Of a stretch of DNA of 51,738 nt, positions 4,505 through 28,662 are shown piece by piece. Below the pieces are notes generated by a model, which searched no databases, was not told the origin of the DNA, and was given only the letters and a program-made list of their open reading frames with translations. Within the stretch, counting starts at the first letter, position 1. Each line of letters opens with the position of its first letter. The stretch covers positions 1-51,738 of the forward strand of contig JAFRSP010000044.1 of assembly GCA_017427525.1 (NCBI GenBank). Direction: 5' to 3'. The position numbers were made by a program, and so were the translations under genes. The stretch is from Clostridia bacterium. GTDB lineage: Bacteria; Bacillota; Clostridia; Oscillospirales; Feifaniaceae.

Positions 4505-6574
4505 TTGAAAACCCAACTGGAACATCAAGAACGACAAGAGAAGGAAGAGAAGAAGCAAAGGCAGGCAAAGCCGCACCGCAGGCGCAAAGAAACCGAAGCG
4601 CATGCGGAGGCAGCTCCGGCTAAAGGGCATGAACAGAGCCCGACGGCGCCCACGCCCAAAAAGCGGCGAACCTCCCCCTACCCGGGGCAGGTGATGCCCT
4701 CGCTCTTTTCCAGACGTGCAGGCATGGAGCCGATTCCCGCAATGCCGAAGGCAGAGCCGTCCGGCAGGGGAGCCGAGTCCGCGCCTCAGCAAAAGAAGAA
4801 AAAACGCAAAGGAAAATCCGCCGCGCCGGAGACCAAGCTGCCGGTTACGCCGGCGCCGACCGTTTCTGCTTCGCCCGAAGCGGGCGCAAGGCGGCGTCAG
4901 CCCAAGAAGAAGGGCGGCGCGGCAGTGCGCATCATCTCGCTGGGCGGTCTGCATGAGATCGGAAAAAACATGACCGTGATCGAATACGGGGAGGATATCA
5001 TCGTGGTCGACTGCGGCATGGCTTTTCCCGACGAAACCATGCCCGGGGTCGATGTGGTAATCCCCGATGTGAGCTATCTTGTGAAGAATGCCGACCGCGT
5101 ACGCGGATTTTTCATCACCCATGGCCATGAAGACCACACAGGGGCGCTGCCCTATGTGCTGCAGCAGATCAATGCGCCGGTCTACGGAACCAGGCTGACC
5201 TGCGGGTTGATTAAAAACAAACTGCAGGAGCACCATCTTCTGCGCACGACCACCCTGCACGAGGTCCGTTATGGCGACGTGATTGAGGCGGGCTGCTTTT
5301 CGGTTGAGATCATCCGGAGCAACCACTCGATTCCCGATGCCTGCGCCCTCTGCATCAACACGCCGCTCGGCAACATCATCCACACGGGCGACTTCAAAAT
5401 CGATCCCACTCCCATCGACGGTGAAATGATGGATCTGGCGCGCCTGGGCGAGCTGGGAAAGGAAGGGGTGCTGGCCCTGATTTCCGACTCCACAAACGCC
5501 GAGCGGGAGGGTTATACCAAGTCGGAGCGCACGGTAGGCGCTGCGCTTGAGCGGCTCTTTGCCACCACCGAATGCCGGATCATCGTGACCACCTTTGCCT
5601 CCAACATCCACCGCGTGAAGCAGATCATCGATGCGGCGGAAAAATTCGGGCGCAAGGTGGCGATCTCGGGACGCTCGATGGTCAACAATGTCAATGCGGC
5701 AATGGAGCTCGGCGTGATCGAGATCTCGCCCAGCGTGCTGATCGACATTCAAAAAGTGAAGAATTACCCGCCGGAGGAGCTGGTGATCGTGACCACCGGC
5801 AGTCAGGGCGAGCCGCTTTCGGCGCTCTACCGCATGGCCTTTGCAGACCATAAAAACGTGGCTATCGGCGACAATGATTTGGTCATCATCTCGGCCTCCC
5901 CGGTGCCGGGCAACGAAGAGATGGTCAGCAACGTCATCAACGAACTGATGCGGCGGGGCGCAGAGGTCATCACCAACAAGCAGGCCGATATCCATGTTTC
6001 GGGGCACGGCTCGCAGGAAGAGCATAAATTGGTCATCGGGTTGACCCATCCGCGCACCTTCATTCCCATGCACGGTGAAATGCGGCACATGCTCGCGCAT
6101 GCCAAAACCGCGCAGACCATGGGGATCGCGCCGGAGAATATCGTGCTCAGCGAAATCGGAAAGGTCATCGAGCTCACCGAAGAGGGATGGCGCTTTGGCG
6201 GAACCGTTCCGGCAGGACAGGTGCTGGTTGATGGCAGCGGGATCGGCGATGTAGGCAATGTGGTGCTGCGCGACCGAAAGAATCTGTCGGAAAACGGGCT
6301 CATCGTCGTTACGGCCACCATCGAGAAGCGTACCGGCCGTTTGCTGACGGGGCCGGAAATCCTCACACGCGGTTTTGTCTATGTCAAGGAGTCGGACGAG
6401 CTGATGGAGCAGCTCCGCGCCGACGCGAAGGAGGCGCTGGAGCGCTGTTGCAGCAACGGCGTCACCGAATGGGGCGCCATCAAAAACGAACTGCGGGACG
6501 CCGTGTATTCCACGGTCTATAAAAGGACCAAGCGCACCCCGATGATCCTGCCCATGCTGATGGAGCTGGACTGA
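4505..6574 (+). CDS. rnj: Ribonuclease J with long basic N-terminal extension
   Basis: A 5'-3' exo/endoribonuclease for mRNA turnover and rRNA maturation, in the cytoplasm. The metallo-beta-lactamase core begins near residue 140 (VRIISLGGLHEIGKN). The zinc motif THGHEDHTG is near 206, a beta-CASP domain follows, then the C-terminal region with GPEILTRGFVYVKE. Length is 689 residues against about 555 in Bacillus; the excess is a 135-residue Lys/Arg/Glu/Pro-rich N-terminus, probably disordered. The start is TTG with GGAGG seven bases ahead; no better start exists nearby. The leader carries repeats that can form alternative hairpins. Confidence 0.96.
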   Translation: MKTQLEHQERQEKEEKKQRQAKPHRRRKETEAHAEAAPAKGHEQSPTAPTPKKRRTSPYPGQVMPSLFSRRAGMEPIPAMPKAEPSGRGAESAPQQKKKKRKGKSAAPETKLPVTPAPTVSASPEAGARRRQPKKKGGAAVRIISLGGLHEIGKNMTVIEYGEDIIVVDCGMAFPDETMPGVDVVIPDVSYLVKNADRVRGFFITHGHEDHTGALPYVLQQINAPVYGTRLTCGLIKNKLQEHHLLRTTTLHEVRYGDVIEAGCFSVEIIRSNHSIPDACALCINTPLGNIIHTGDFKIDPTPIDGEMMDLARLGELGKEGVLALISDSTNAEREGYTKSERTVGAALERLFATTECRIIVTTFASNIHRVKQIIDAAEKFGRKVAISGRSMVNNVNAAMELGVIEISPSVLIDIQKVKNYPPEELVIVTTGSQGEPLSALYRMAFADHKNVAIGDNDLVIISASPVPGNEEMVSNVINELMRRGAEVITNKQADIHVSGHGSQEEHKLVIGLTHPRTFIPMHGEMRHMLAHAKTAQTMGIAPENIVLSEIGKVIELTEEGWRFGGTVPAGQVLVDGSGIGDVGNVVLRDRKNLSENGLIVVTATIEKRTGRLLTGPEILTRGFVYVKESDELMEQLRADAKEALERCCSNGVTEWGAIKNELRDAVYSTVYKRTKRTPMILPMLMELD

Positions 6575-24606: not shown

Positions 24607-25473
24607 TTACTGCACCACGCCGCCCTCCACGACCAGGCTGTCTTCATAGTCCAGACCGTAGGTGTCGACCAGGGTGGCCTCATAGTCGGCATGGAAGAAT
24701 TGCTCTTCGCCAAGGCTCTTGATTTCCTCGTTCAACCAATCGAGAAGCGAGGTGTTTCCCTTTGAAACGGCGGGGGCGATGGTGTCTTGGCTGCCGAGAG
24801 AGGGGATTCCCACAGTGTAGCCCTCGTTTTGCAGGGCAAAGGCGATCACCTCGGTGTTGTCGTTCGCCCAGGCGACGGCGTTTCCGTTTTCCAGGGCATT
24901 TTTCGCGGTGGCGTAAGAATCATATTTCTGAAGCGGGATCTCGGGGTTGTTTTTGATGAGATAGGTCTCGGCGGTGGTTCCGGAAATCACGATGATGGAA
25001 TCGTTTGGATCCCAGTTGTCAAGACTGTCGATCACGCGGCTGTCGGGAGAGACCACGCCGAGTGCGACGTTCATGTAGGGAAGAGCAAAATCCACTTCCT
25101 CGGCGCGCTCAGGGGTTACGGTAAAGTTCGCAAGAATGATATCGACCTTTCCGGTCTGGAGGTATTCGATACGGTTGGCGGCTTCGGTGGAGACGTATTC
25201 CACCTTTACCCCGAGGTCTTTTGCGATACGGTCGGCAAAGTATACGTCGTAGCCCTGATATTCGCCGTTTTCATCCACATATCCAAAGGGGTTTTTGTCG
25301 GAAAACACGCCGATTCGAACGGTACCGCTCTCCTGAATGTCCGAAAGGGAGCGGTAAATGGTATCCTCCACCGGTTCGGCGTTGCTTTCGTTGTCGGAGG
25401 AGCTGCAGGCTGTGAACGCAAACACCAGGGTCAGTATAGTGAGAAGGACAAGAGCTTTTCGAATGTATTTCAT
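24607..25473 (-). CDS. Cysteine-type ABC transporter substrate-binding lipoprotein (CjaA-like)
   Basis: A family 3 solute-binding protein of an amino-acid importer. The lipobox FTAC puts the lipidated Cys at residue 23. The pattern closely follows CjaA-type cysteine-binding proteins as I remember them: FGYVDENGEYQGYDVYFADRI, VDIILANFTVTPERAEEVDF, then PYMNVALGVV, EEQFFHADYEATL and a C-terminal VVEGG. Length is 288 residues. It is the last gene of the operon, 29 bases after the ATPase. Substrate is inferred from family similarity and from the Cys-rich leader ORF of the operon. Confidence 0.9.
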   Translation of the reverse strand: MKYIRKALVLLTILTLVFAFTACSSSDNESNAEPVEDTIYRSLSDIQESGTVRIGVFSDKNPFGYVDENGEYQGYDVYFADRIAKDLGVKVEYVSTEAANRIEYLQTGKVDIILANFTVTPERAEEVDFALPYMNVALGVVSPDSRVIDSLDNWDPNDSIIVISGTTAETYLIKNNPEIPLQKYDSYATAKNALENGNAVAWANDNTEVIAFALQNEGYTVGIPSLGSQDTIAPAVSKGNTSLLDWLNEEIKSLGEEQFFHADYEATLVDTYGLDYEDSLVVEGGVVQ

Positions 25474-25502: not shown

Positions 25503-26276
25503 TCAGTTTTGGGATTGTGGCTGTTCGAGACGTTTTCGTTCAAAGGTAAAGGTTTGCAGAAATTTTTTCGCCCGTTCTGTTTTGGGAGAATCAAAGAATT
25601 CTTCGGGCGTGCCCTCCTCTTGGATCCTTCCCGCTTCGAGCAGGATGATCCGGTCGGCCACGGCCCGTGCGAATTGCATCTCATGGGTGACGATCAGCAT
25701 GGTCTTTCCCTGATCGGCAAGACGTAAGATCACGTCCAGGACCTCCCGCACCATCTCGGGGTCGAGCGCTGCGGTCACCTCGTCGAACAGCAGGATCTCC
25801 GGATGCATGCACAGCGCCCGCACGATGGCGACACGCTGCTTTTGTCCGCCGGAGAGCTGCCGGGGGTAGCTTGCCGCTTTTTCCTCCAGACCCACGCGGG
25901 CGAGAAGGGCCATCGCCTCTTTGGAAGCATCCTCTCTGGAACGCTTCTGCACCTTCATCGGGGCGAGGACGATATTCTCCAGCACGGTCAGATGGGGAAA
26001 CAGATCATAGCTCTGAAAGACCATTCCGATTTTTTGACGCAGCTCGGTCAGATTTTTGCTGCTCTTTGAAACAAGTTCGCCATGCAGCCGGATTTCACCG
26101 CCCTGGATCTCCTCCAGGGCGTTCATACATCGCAGCAGCGTACTTTTCCCGCATCCGCTGGGGCCGACGATCACCACGACCTCTCCTTCATGCACGGTCA
26201 GGCTCAGATCATCTAAAACGAGAAGCTCGTCGAACCGTTTTGTGAGATGCGAAAGGGTTAAAATGGGGTTCGACAC
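25503..26276 (-). CDS. Polar amino-acid ABC transporter ATPase
   Basis: The ATP-hydrolysing subunit of the importer. It has Walker A in VGPSGCGKSTLLRC (about 38-51), the Q-loop in MVFQSYDLFPHLTV, signature LSGGQKQRVAIVRAL, Walker B ILLFDEVTAALDPE and the switch His in IVTHEMQFA. The start was set at GTG 26276, which has GGAGGTGA upstream overlapping the permease stop; the longer open frame would overlap the permease by 56 bases and lacks family similarity. Length is 257 residues, typical of GlnQ-type subunits. Confidence 0.95.
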   Translation of the reverse strand: MSNPILTLSHLTKRFDELLVLDDLSLTVHEGEVVVIVGPSGCGKSTLLRCMNALEEIQGGEIRLHGELVSKSSKNLTELRQKIGMVFQSYDLFPHLTVLENIVLAPMKVQKRSREDASKEAMALLARVGLEEKAASYPRQLSGGQKQRVAIVRALCMHPEILLFDEVTAALDPEMVREVLDVILRLADQGKTMLIVTHEMQFARAVADRIILLEAGRIQEEGTPEEFFDSPKTERAKKFLQTFTFERKRLEQPQSQN

Positions 26277-26280
26277 CGGC

Positions 26281-26955
26281 TCACCTCCATCGTCTTTCAA
26301 GATATTTTGCAAGCAGGCTGATCGGCCAGCAGGCAAAGAAATACAGGAGCAACACGGTCAGGTAGATACCAAAAGCCGCATTAGGACTGCTCATGCGATT
26401 TGCCTCGATGATTTGCTGCGCGACCTTGAGCACCTCCACCACCCCGATCATGAGCACCAAACTGGTGGTCTTGATCATGCGGGTGATGAGATTGATCGAG
26501 AGGGGAATCAGCCTGCGCACAGCCTGAGGCAGCACGACAAAGAAATAAGATTGCCTCTTCGAGAGGCCGAGGGCGGCCGCGCTTTCATATTGATGCGCCG
26601 GAATGCTGGTCAAGGCGCCGCGCACCAGATCGCTCATCTCCGCCGTGCCCCACAGGGAGAAGACGATCACAGAAGAGAGCTCGCCGGAAAGATTCCAGCC
26701 AAAGGCCCGTGTGGTTCCGAAATACACAAGGAAGAGCAGCACCATCTGGGGCATGATACGGATAAACTCCAGGTATAACCGAAGGATCGCCCGGCTGAGG
26801 GGATTCTTCCAGGTCATGAGAATGCCGAGCAGGGTGCCGAGGAGCAGACTGATCGCGACCGAGACCAGGCTGATTTTGAGCGCAACGCCCAACCCCCCCA
26901 GAATACGAGCGAAATTTTTTCCCTTGAGGAGCACGCTAAGTCCCAAATCCGGCAT
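26281..26955 (-). CDS. Polar amino-acid ABC transporter permease (second)
   Basis: A membrane subunit of the HisMQ type, 224 residues with about five membrane segments. The EAA-type loop is in YESAAALGLSKRQSYFFVVLPQA (about 122-144). GGAGG precedes the ATG. It overlaps the preceding permease gene by 20 bases, which implies tight coupling. Two different permease genes point to a heterodimeric channel. Confidence 0.94.
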   Translation of the reverse strand: MPDLGLSVLLKGKNFARILGGLGVALKISLVSVAISLLLGTLLGILMTWKNPLSRAILRLYLEFIRIMPQMVLLFLVYFGTTRAFGWNLSGELSSVIVFSLWGTAEMSDLVRGALTSIPAHQYESAAALGLSKRQSYFFVVLPQAVRRLIPLSINLITRMIKTTSLVLMIGVVEVLKVAQQIIEANRMSSPNAAFGIYLTVLLLYFFACWPISLLAKYLERRWR

Positions 26956-27595
26956 GGCGGGTCCTCCTCTCCAAAAGGGTTCCGAGCAGCGAAATGGGAA
27001 GCAGGATCAGCAAATAGAAGACCACGAGCAGAAACAGACTCTCTGTGGTTTTGTAATACAGTCCGATCAGATCCTTGGCCGTGAACATCAAATCCATCAA
27101 GCTGATGGCGGAAAACACGCTGGTTTCCTTCAGGAGAAAAATCACATTGGCCACAAAGGCGGGCACGCTGACCGAAAAGGCCTGAGGGAAGATCACATAC
27201 CGCAGCGTCTGCCCCCTGCTCAGGCCGAGACTGTAGGCGCTCTCCTCCTGGATGATATCGATGGCCTCCACCCCGCTTCGGAAGGCCTCCGCCATATAGC
27301 TTCCTCCGAGGAAGGCCAGACCGGCGATTCCGCAGGCGACGGCGTTGGTGGGCACCCCGATTTTTGGAAGGCCATAATAGAGGAAGAAGAGCTGCACCAG
27401 CAGAGGAGTGTTTCGACTGAGCTCAATGTAGGCAGAAACAAGCTGCCGAAACACAGGGATTCGGCTGCGCTGCACCGCAGTGCAAAACAGCCCAATCAGA
27501 ATCGCAGCTGCGATGCCCAGCAGACCGATACGGACGGTCAGCCCGGCAGCTTTGCGATAGAGGGGAAGATACTGACGAATCACGGTCCAGTTCAA
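26936..27595 (-). CDS. Polar amino-acid ABC transporter permease (first)
   Basis: The first structural gene of the operon, 219 residues with about five membrane segments. The family motif SRNTPLLVQLFFLYYGLP is near 58, and the EAA loop is in EESAYSLGLSRGQTLRYVIFPQA. The start is TTG at 27595 with AAGGAG eight bases ahead; an ATG 46 codons upstream would put the protein start almost in the leader terminator and add a sequence with no family match. Expression is probably set by the leader attenuator at 27732-27960. Confidence 0.93.
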   Translation of the reverse strand: MNWTVIRQYLPLYRKAAGLTVRIGLLGIAAAILIGLFCTAVQRSRIPVFRQLVSAYIELSRNTPLLVQLFFLYYGLPKIGVPTNAVACGIAGLAFLGGSYMAEAFRSGVEAIDIIQEESAYSLGLSRGQTLRYVIFPQAFSVSVPAFVANVIFLLKETSVFSAISLMDLMFTAKDLIGLYYKTTESLFLLVVFYLLILLPISLLGTLLERRTRHAGFGT

Positions 27596-27731: not shown

Positions 27732-27766
27732 AAAAAAAGCCCGAGAGCAAGATGAAGCTCTCGGGC
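27732..27766 (-). terminator. Intrinsic terminator inside the ABC operon leader
   Basis: On the minus strand, GCCCGAGAGC pairs perfectly with GCTCTCGGGC (10 bp, eight-base loop), followed by seven T residues. It lies upstream of the structural genes, so it must be an attenuator or the end of a short RNA. Confidence 0.93.
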
Positions 27767-27792
27767 AGATAACAGTCGGAACGCAGAAAAAC

Positions 27793-27921
27793 CTAATTCG
27801 GCAATTCAGCACAGCACAAACACGAATGCTTGAGCGCCCCGGCCACAATACAAACCCGGGAGTTCAGCATCCGACAACACATGCAGGGATATTCCGTTTT
27901 GAAGGGGAGGAAACCGATCAT
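27793..27921 (-). CDS. Cys-rich leader peptide of the cysteine ABC operon
   Basis: A 42-codon ORF between the promoter and the attenuator. Cys codons are at 13, 15, 16, 24, 34, 36 and 37, giving the clusters CMCC and CLCC; 17 percent Cys against about 1 percent in normal proteins. A ribosome site core (GAAGG) lies eight bases before the ATG, within the palindrome AAGGCCTT. The TAG stop is 26 bases before the terminator stem. The peptide itself has no recognisable domain; its job is probably to sense charged tRNA-Cys as it is translated. It is too short for standard gene calling. Confidence 0.72.
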   Translation of the reverse strand: MIGFLPFKTEYPCMCCRMLNSRVCIVAGALKHSCLCCAELPN

Positions 27922-27966
27922 TTCCAAGGCCTTCTTTCGAATGATTTGATCAAACAAAGTGATATC

Positions 27967-27995
27967 ATGTTACACCTATTGGTTTACTCTGTCAA
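27967..27995 (-). promoter_or_regulatory. Strong promoter of the cysteine ABC operon leader
   Basis: On the minus strand, a perfect -35 TTGACA (27990-27995) and -10 TAACAT (27967-27972) with 17-base spacing. The spacer holds ACCTATT (27974-27980, plus strand), which recurs in the divergent rrf2-gene promoter at 28034-28040. Confidence 0.82.
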
Positions 27996-28089: not shown

Positions 28090-28491
28090 GTGATTTCCAC
28101 AAAAGGAAGGTATGCTCTGCGGGTGATGATCGATCTGGCCGAGCACGCAGACGAGGGATATGTTCCTCTGAAAGAGGTTGCCGACCGGCAGGAGATCTCG
28201 AAGAAATACCTGGAGATTATTGTGCGGGATCTGGTGAAGGGAAATCTGCTGATCGGAGCAAGCGGAAAAGGCGGGGGATACCGGCTTTGCCGCAAACCGG
28301 AGGAATACACGGTTTGGGAAATCTTAGAGTGCATGGAATGCTCCCTGGCAACGGTCGCCTGTCTGACGGATGGGGCGGTCCCCTGTCCAAGAGCGGCAGA
28401 CTGCAAAACCCTTCCCATGTGGGAGGAGTTTGACGGCATGGTGAAAGCCTATTTTACAGGCAAGCGGCTGAGCGACATGGTTTTACAGTAA
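28090..28491 (+). CDS. Rrf2 family transcriptional regulator
   Basis: A 133-residue winged-helix regulator (Rrf2 superfamily, which includes IscR and CymR). The N-terminal ISTKGRYALRVMIDLA and the recognition region QEISKKYLEIIVRDL followed by GASGKGGGYRL are diagnostic. Three Cys in CLTDGAVPCPRAADC (C-x7-C-x5-C) match the cluster-binding loop of IscR-like members; CymR itself lacks this. The GTG start has GGAGG upstream; the frame stays open far upstream through non-coding leader. It is divergent from the cysteine ABC operon, so control of that operon is likely but unproven. Confidence 0.93.
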   Translation: MISTKGRYALRVMIDLAEHADEGYVPLKEVADRQEISKKYLEIIVRDLVKGNLLIGASGKGGGYRLCRKPEEYTVWEILECMECSLATVACLTDGAVPCPRAADCKTLPMWEEFDGMVKAYFTGKRLSDMVLQ

Positions 28492-28555
28492 GGGGTGCGG
28501 GGAAGCCCGCTCAAAGCCTTCATACATATGCAGAGAAAAAAGATCCGAAAACAAA

Positions 28556-28602
28556 AACGCCCGTTTGAAAGAGCGCCTGCGCCTTCAAACAGGCGTTTTT
28601 TG
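28556..28602 (+). terminator. Terminator of the Rrf2 gene
   Basis: AACGCCCGTTTGAA (28556-28569) pairs with TTCAAACAGGCGTT (28584-28597) with one mismatch, followed by a T run. Its stem core recurs in the next hairpin. Confidence 0.85.
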
Positions 28603-28607
28603 CTGTG

Positions 28608-28645
28608 AAAACAATCAAAGGACGCCTGTTTCAAACCAGGCGTCC
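28608..28645 (-). terminator. Terminator after the 28663-29385 gene
   Basis: On the minus strand, GGACGCCTG/CAGGCGTCC (28620-28645) is followed by a broken T-rich tail, TTTGATTGTTTT. It is weaker than the neighbouring plus-strand terminator and shares its GCCTG core. Confidence 0.6.
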
Positions 28646-28662
28646 CTTGTTCCAGGAGAGTT

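Follow-up and report, generated by a model that had tools for sequence, protein, structure and literature searches.

A widespread Cys-codon leader with the features of a ribosome-mediated attenuator precedes cysteine and sulfur genes in Clostridia

What does a short cysteine-rich reading frame do in front of a putative cysteine importer operon in a Clostridia bacterium, when leader-peptide attenuation is usually linked to Proteobacteria and Actinobacteria and Firmicutes are thought to use T-boxes? The question is raised by a 51,738-nucleotide stretch of DNA, hereafter the window, which carries the leader and the operon on its minus strand. The operon encodes an ABC permease with a BPD_transp_1 domain (26939..27595; the first structural gene, with a TTG start preceded by AAAGGAG), a second ABC permease (26284..26955), an ABC ATPase (25506..26276), and an SBP_bac_3 substrate-binding protein (24610..25473). 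The closest solved structures to the binding protein are 2yjp and 1xt8, which we take to be cysteine binders from Neisseria gonorrhoeae and Campylobacter jejuni (CjaA), respectively, and this agrees with an earlier sequence-only reading of the locus that had called the transporter a CjaA-like, cysteine-type importer. An Rrf2-family regulator resembling IscR and CymR is encoded divergently from the ABC operon (28090..28491, plus strand). The stretch separating the Rrf2 gene from the operon beyond it contains two or three terminator-like hairpins (28555-28649).

Upstream of the first permease gene, we located a sigma-70-type promoter, TTGACA-17-TAACAT (27967..27995; TTGACA at 27995-27990 and TAACAT at 27972-27967), and a Shine-Dalgarno sequence, AGAAGG (27930..27935), in a position homologous to GGAGG in a relative, L002. 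The leader ORF that follows runs from an ATG at 27921 to a stop at 27793 and has homologous peptides in relatives; its 42 codons specify MIGFLPFKTEYPCMCCRMLNSRVCIVAGALKHSCLCCAELPN, with seven Cys residues at codons 13, 15, 16, 24, 34, 36, and 37. From the placement of Cys in relatives, the C-M-C-C cluster at codons 13, 15, and 16 (27874..27885) was assigned as the regulatory one. Downstream, an intrinsic terminator (27732..27766; −22.6 kcal/mol) consists of a stem at 27766-27739, with ten pairs of which eight are G-C in the window copy, and a run of seven T at 27738-27732. The promoter, the 42-codon Cys-rich ORF, the 10-bp terminator with seven T, and the downstream ABC operon were thus all confirmed as the sequence-only reading had described them, on the minus strand. 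The same reading had proposed an alternative pairing of 27862-27855 with 27765-27758. This pairing joins an antiterminator 5′ arm, CUCCCGGG, within the codons of the N-S-R region (27855..27862), to a 3′ arm, CCCGAGAG, that also forms the terminator 5′ strand (27758..27765); it is real but imperfect, with seven of eight positions paired and one C·A mismatch.

Cys content alone is suggestive and not decisive. As many as 2 of the 277 window ORFs of 30–60 aa contain seven or more Cys, even though a 7-Cys leader has a binomial chance of 1e-6 at the local Cys rate of 1.28%. The fold of the window leader beats those of shuffled sequences (z = −4.66). What raises the leader above chance is its conservation in relatives: judged from sequence, the window leader is a divergent member of a widespread family.

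A DNA similarity search of 59 related genomes yielded a single homologue (beginning MIGYTTLNGNIFMCCRMLCSRD), from another family of the same order; its leader precedes an O-acetylhomoserine/serine sulfhydrylase gene, behind iscS- and iscU-like genes, and not an ABC operon. Because plain DNA similarity gave only this one homologue, RNA-model and pattern searches were adopted. Leaders rich in Cys, MCCRMLYSRAYDMAGAFDC and MCCCISSRTS, also stand before the permease orthologues of further families in the order. We built an RNA model from six leaders and surveyed three taxonomic levels with it, obtaining matches in 19 of 394 genomes for the order, 12 of 391 for the class, and 3 of 348 for the phylum; the surveys overlap in some genomes. 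A DNA pattern in which only CGAATGNTNNNCTCCCGG and a distant CCGGGAG were fixed, with Cys codons unspecified, identified at least 118 loci from 84,980 species genomes, and removal of near-duplicates left 107 leaders among the matches listed. The sequence-only reading had pointed to Oscillospirales as the place to look for Cys-rich ORFs followed by terminators, and the element was found across Oscillospirales, Lachnospiraceae, and Saccharofermentans-like genomes, before CjaA-like importers among other genes. The family is thus widespread, mostly in front of a sulfhydrylase, and no oddity of one operon.

Record labels among the matches listed include Lachnospiraceae, Ruminococcaceae, Oscillospiraceae, Saccharofermentans, Butyrivibrio, Blautia, Gemmiger, Christensenella, and one Eggerthellaceae. 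They include Lachnospiraceae isolates, namely strains YSD2013 (FMTX01000012.1) and AB2028 (JHYJ01000003.1). Many matched records are metagenome-assembled genomes (MAGs), so lone taxonomic outliers may be misbinned; in the uncultured Eggerthellaceae MAG (L109), which carries an actinobacterial label, the element lies before a sulfhydrylase gene, reflecting either horizontal transfer or misbinning. The element was also seen twice on one contig or in one genome (L060, at 2021-2210 and 6223-6404; G626; G477; G644), and in G626 and G644 the two copies precede different genes. Two orthologous ABC operons, one of them from the genus of the window, have leaders without the common core (L008, 1315-1401; L009, 1146-1298). 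These leaders are Cys-rich but unrelated in sequence, with terminators and alternative folds of their own, and represent either leader turnover or independent origin. A TPP riboswitch is located near the orthologous ABC operon in L009 (771-869, minus strand).

The reading frame is strongly maintained across the family. A Shine-Dalgarno sequence with a start codon in the core frame and no intervening stop was present in 94 of the 107 matches listed, compared with 7 and 7 for the other two frames. The Cys codons that the sequence-only reading had made central are likewise conserved: in a search that left codons unspecified, 102 of the 107 matches listed carry Cys within three codons before the RML-x-SR core, most commonly in the triplets M-C-C, C-C-C, R-C-G, C-M-C, and W-C-C. 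In some sulfhydrylase leaders only one Cys codon stands close to the core (RCGRML type), a point against the attenuator reading. Cys accounts for 9.4% of leader tails among the matches listed and 1.3% in the genes of the window, and the core Cys codons are UGU or UGC in a ratio of 159:19 (matches listed), compared with 31% UGU in neighbouring genes. A subgroup (L006, L019, L021) has lost R-M-L, for which the L006 group has I-S-S, and kept three Cys; in L158 an in-frame stop ends the ORF just behind CCRMR, but the Cys codons and the antiterminator are retained.

Few matches depart from this arrangement. L062, L111, and L118 have no Cys in the three codons before the core and lack the leader features, and were therefore treated as chance pattern matches, of which ~3.6 would be expected by a rough count at equal base frequencies. 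In L044, Cys lies slightly more upstream than three codons, and L078 is a true exception without Cys at this place. L027 (FYRMRYSRA, no clear T-run) was considered as a counter-example to Cys conservation and rejected, its terminator being degraded as well; a decayed copy is the likelier reading, if an unproven one. Other codons recur beside Cys: AUG occupies codon −3 in 53 and codon −4 in 37 of the 107 matches listed, and occurs also inside the core, while UGG (Trp) occurs 19 times at positions −3 to −1, adjoining Cys codons (matches listed). These Met and Trp codons are unexplained by an attenuator that reads Cys and count against it.

We next consider the RNA. An alignment of 80 leaders showed pairing in 88.3% of cells for the antiterminator and inner helices, compared with 77.9% after shuffling, and in 98.7% for the outer helix (helix 1). 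The covariation score of 0.260 exceeded that of shuffled (0.127) and slid (at most 0.044) controls, which upholds the stems inferred by the sequence-only reading. Because this alignment had been fitted to the model, we added an independent ungapped test, in which helix 2 and the bases flanking the fixed arms exceeded controls with arms re-paired between sequences. The terminator arm is followed by a T-run in 100 of the 107 matches listed. Since the arm CCGGGAG is common to the antiterminator and the terminator, the two structures are mutually exclusive. L167 seems, by eye, to have swapped both arms, pairing GGGCUG with CAGCCC. Evidence is weaker for a further hairpin that would form behind the ribosome, between the Cys-codon region and GCGUUCGAC; its score was only modestly above controls (15.19 versus 14.54 after re-pairing), although no re-pairing reached 15.19. 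The case that would have refuted the earlier proposal, namely orthologues keeping the structure and losing the frame or the Cys codons, was not seen, as orthologues keep all three.

The spacing between codons and structure is consistent with a stalled ribosome acting as the switch. In the window (codon 16) and in its relatives, the last Cys codon begins 14 nt before the antiterminator arm. A ribosome footprint extends ~12 nt beyond the first A-site base. With this footprint assumed, a modelled stall at codon −1 spares the arm and one at codon 0 covers it, which would place the last Cys codons at the furthest downstream position that still spares the arm. In the model for relatives, a ribosome on the arm raised the probability of the terminator from 0.16 to 0.87. 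Without a ribosome, most relatives favoured the antiterminator at equilibrium (0.84), so termination would need translation past the Cys codons. With the ribosome at the leader stop, the equilibrium probability of the antiterminator was still 0.69, and the off-state is thus only partly explained at equilibrium. The window copy behaved differently from most relatives in the model: the terminator beat the antiterminator at equilibrium for every ribosome position, and in the transcript before the terminator 3′ strand the antiterminator had a probability of ~0.99. If the model holds, switching in the window must be kinetic and co-transcriptional, and the window copy could be biased towards termination.

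The observed structure, codon placement, and gene company, together with the promoter, the Shine-Dalgarno sequence, and the frame, make it very probable, as far as sequence and modelling can tell, that the element is a ribosome-mediated transcription attenuator sensing charged tRNA-Cys. RNA polymerase would start at ~27960, and the leader ORF, whose translation is inferred, would be translated behind it. When Cys-tRNA is scarce, the ribosome would halt with a Cys codon in the A site, codon 16 being the last that is effective, and its front edge would end just short of CUCCCGGG (27862-27855). The free arm could then pair with CCCGAGAG (27765-27758), blocking the terminator and allowing the cysteine importer to be transcribed. 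When Cys-tRNA is ample, the ribosome would cover the arm, or the upstream hairpin, UGUCGAAUGC with GCGUUCGAC in relatives, would form behind the ribosome, and transcription would be terminated. In most relatives, an upstream Rrf2-type operator at the promoter would supply a second input. The sequence-only reading had placed the stall at codons 13–16; Cys placement fits this, but the key stall, itself inferred, is more probably at codon 16. The attenuation mechanism put forward in that reading is well supported by sequence and model, with the response to cysteine remaining an inference in the absence of expression data.

The genes behind the element fit the amino acid that would be sensed, being genes of cysteine and sulfur metabolism. 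Among the matches listed, the commonest is an O-acetylhomoserine/serine sulfhydrylase (52), followed by MetQ/NlpA-type (16) and CjaA-like (8) substrate-binding proteins, permeases (7), glutathione-transferase-like proteins (2), and single cases of a glutamate-cysteine ligase, an NMT1/sulfonate-type substrate-binding protein, and an M20 peptidase, with others cut off. Gene classes outside the window were assigned by eye from sequence, without a family scan, and no cysS was found among the classified downstream genes. A trans-sulfuration enzyme is next in L166 and L167. In L090, L123, and L145, CjaA-like and MetQ-like substrate-binding domains are contained in one predicted polypeptide of 420–568 aa, an unusual fusion hinting at a common sulfur amino acid substrate.

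The promoter region offers a possible second layer of control. TTGACA occupies the same place in relatives, where it lies within a palindrome, ACCTATTGACATAGTAGG, that overlaps the −35 box in 70 of the 107 matches listed (L031-L148) and is absent from control stretches. The window has only a half-site, CAATAGGT (27974..27981, minus strand), whose assignment as half of an Rrf2-type operator is weak. Because Rrf2 homologues adjoin 32 other loci among the matches listed, we infer that the palindrome is likely the operator of a CymR/IscR-like Rrf2 regulator, suggesting dual control by attenuation and this putative operator. T-boxes are also in use in the genome of the window, since five were found there (G000 contigs C29, C45, C58, C72, and C59; L169-L173). 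Read by eye, they precede alaS, pheS/T, a trpB-like gene, metN, and thrS, and none of the five was seen on a Cys gene.

Could a different kind of sensor produce the same locus? A metabolite-binding riboswitch, in which the RNA core would sense cysteine or a related metabolite, with the overlapping ORF merely incidental, could draw on the very well conserved nucleotide core, CGAAUGNUNNNCUCCCGG, and on the covarying RNA structure. An incidental ORF, however, would not hold a Shine-Dalgarno sequence and start in one frame (94 versus 7 and 7 of the matches listed), nor does such a riboswitch account for Cys codons kept with wobble changes and enriched to 9.4% of tail codons (matches listed). Moreover, the antiterminator and the upstream hairpin account for the conserved bases, and no Rfam riboswitch matched at the leader, which makes this explanation very unlikely. 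The core could alternatively belong to an arrest peptide, with a nascent C-R-M-L-x-S-R sequence stalling the ribosome through exit-tunnel contacts and sensing, for example, redox state or metals through Cys thiols. The conservation of the core across families would suit such a peptide, but the N-terminal sequences vary freely among groups, the core residues fall where the RNA pairs, with Cys directly before the arm, and the S-R part would still be unmade during a stall at codon 16; the I-S-S variant of the L006 group and the early stop of L158 are further difficulties, and little credence can be given to this idea.

Regulation by an Rrf2-family repressor at the promoter alone, with the leader a decayed or unimportant 5′ UTR, would leave the covariation, the terminator, the frame, and the Cys codons unexplained. 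The palindrome is missing in 37 of the 107 matches listed and in L004, L005, and L011, and the window has a half-site only. The presence of the operator-like palindrome over the −35 box in the other 70 matches listed and in no control windows, and the divergent Rrf2 gene in the window, are what speak for this possibility, which we regard as scarcely tenable. A sensor that reads Cys-tRNA and Met-tRNA together, responding to sulfur amino acids jointly, deserves somewhat more attention, given the AUG codons before and inside the core (53 and 37 of the 107 matches listed at −3 and −4) and targets that include MetQ-type importers and a sulfhydrylase able to serve methionine synthesis. Yet Met content shows no clear relation to gene type (sulfhydrylase 1.00, MetQ 1.31, CjaA-type 1.25; matches listed), and a separate T-box stands before metN in the genome of the window. 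A joint sensor is improbable, though not negligible, and attenuation driven by Cys codons remains our preferred reading.

The element matched no known family. Rfam 15 gave no family match over the leader at the gathering threshold or with E up to 5 in 12 loci; the only sound matches were to a tRNA at the window edge and to a TPP riboswitch and a T-box in other parts of the loci. The T-box covariance model RF00230 likewise failed to match the leader, both for the window and for representative loci, and an NCBIfam scan of six leader peptides found no family. Open PMC literature yielded no description of a cysteine leader peptide for Clostridia, Lachnospiraceae, or in connection with O-acetylhomoserine.

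The mechanism itself is of an already known kind. In mycobacteria, polycysteine leaderless uORFs are reported to attenuate cys genes (Canestrari et al. 2020, doi 10.1111/mmi.14498, via PMC9094748, PMC13236596); such attenuators had been predicted earlier, with no conserved terminator hairpin found there (PMC1262725). The two systems share a short Cys-rich ORF before cysteine genes and cysteine-responsive attenuation, the latter inferred for Clostridia, and differ in that they belong to different classes of bacteria and that the Clostridia element has a Shine-Dalgarno sequence, a covarying antiterminator, an intrinsic terminator, and a conserved RNA/peptide core. The window leader does not meet the criterion for a leaderless ORF, a start at the transcript 5′ end, as it has the Shine-Dalgarno sequence and a 5′ UTR of ~40 nt, counted from the predicted promoter and hence from a predicted transcript start. 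The Rhodobacterales uORFC-8-2 motif before cysS has likewise been predicted to be a ribosome-mediated attenuator; it has tandem Cys codons around positions 14–15 and an intrinsic terminator (PMC8632094), and is confined to Alphaproteobacteria and cysS, whereas the Clostridia element serves importers and sulfhydrylases. Cys T-boxes of Firmicutes, such as those of Clostridium perfringens cysP2 and ubiG (PMC2940859), perform the same task, in that tRNA-Cys charging controls premature termination, but the T-box RNA binds tRNA directly without translation, and the Clostridia leaders have no T-box match. Leader peptides for other amino acids occur in Firmicutes, both being attenuation systems: bacilli have a histidine peptide before hisS*/hisZ (PMC2965389), and a Leu-rich ilv attenuator peptide for branched-chain amino acids is reported from S. 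aureus (PMC5794164). In the open literature, we found no earlier account of the family or of its core, host range, regulon, and association with an Rrf2-type operator, although prior description in subscription papers is not excluded.

It is conceivable, though we would not put it at quite even odds, that one Cys-codon attenuator family, mostly coupled to an Rrf2 (CymR/IscR-like) operator, is a main cysteine sensor of many gut and rumen Clostridia, replacing Cys T-boxes and integrating charged tRNA-Cys with Fe-S/cysteine-pool status, with Met input possible. The element raises the questions of why the ribosome, and not a T-box, would read Cys in these lineages, and how work would be divided between attenuation and the Rrf2 repressor. 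The family turned up in more than a hundred genomes from anaerobes of the gut and rumen, and its conserved core eases annotation. Furthermore, it offers clues to the function of importers whose substrate is unknown and outlines a putative cysteine regulon, comprising the sulfhydrylase, CjaA and MetQ importers, and glutamate-cysteine ligase, for organisms with little experimental genetics.
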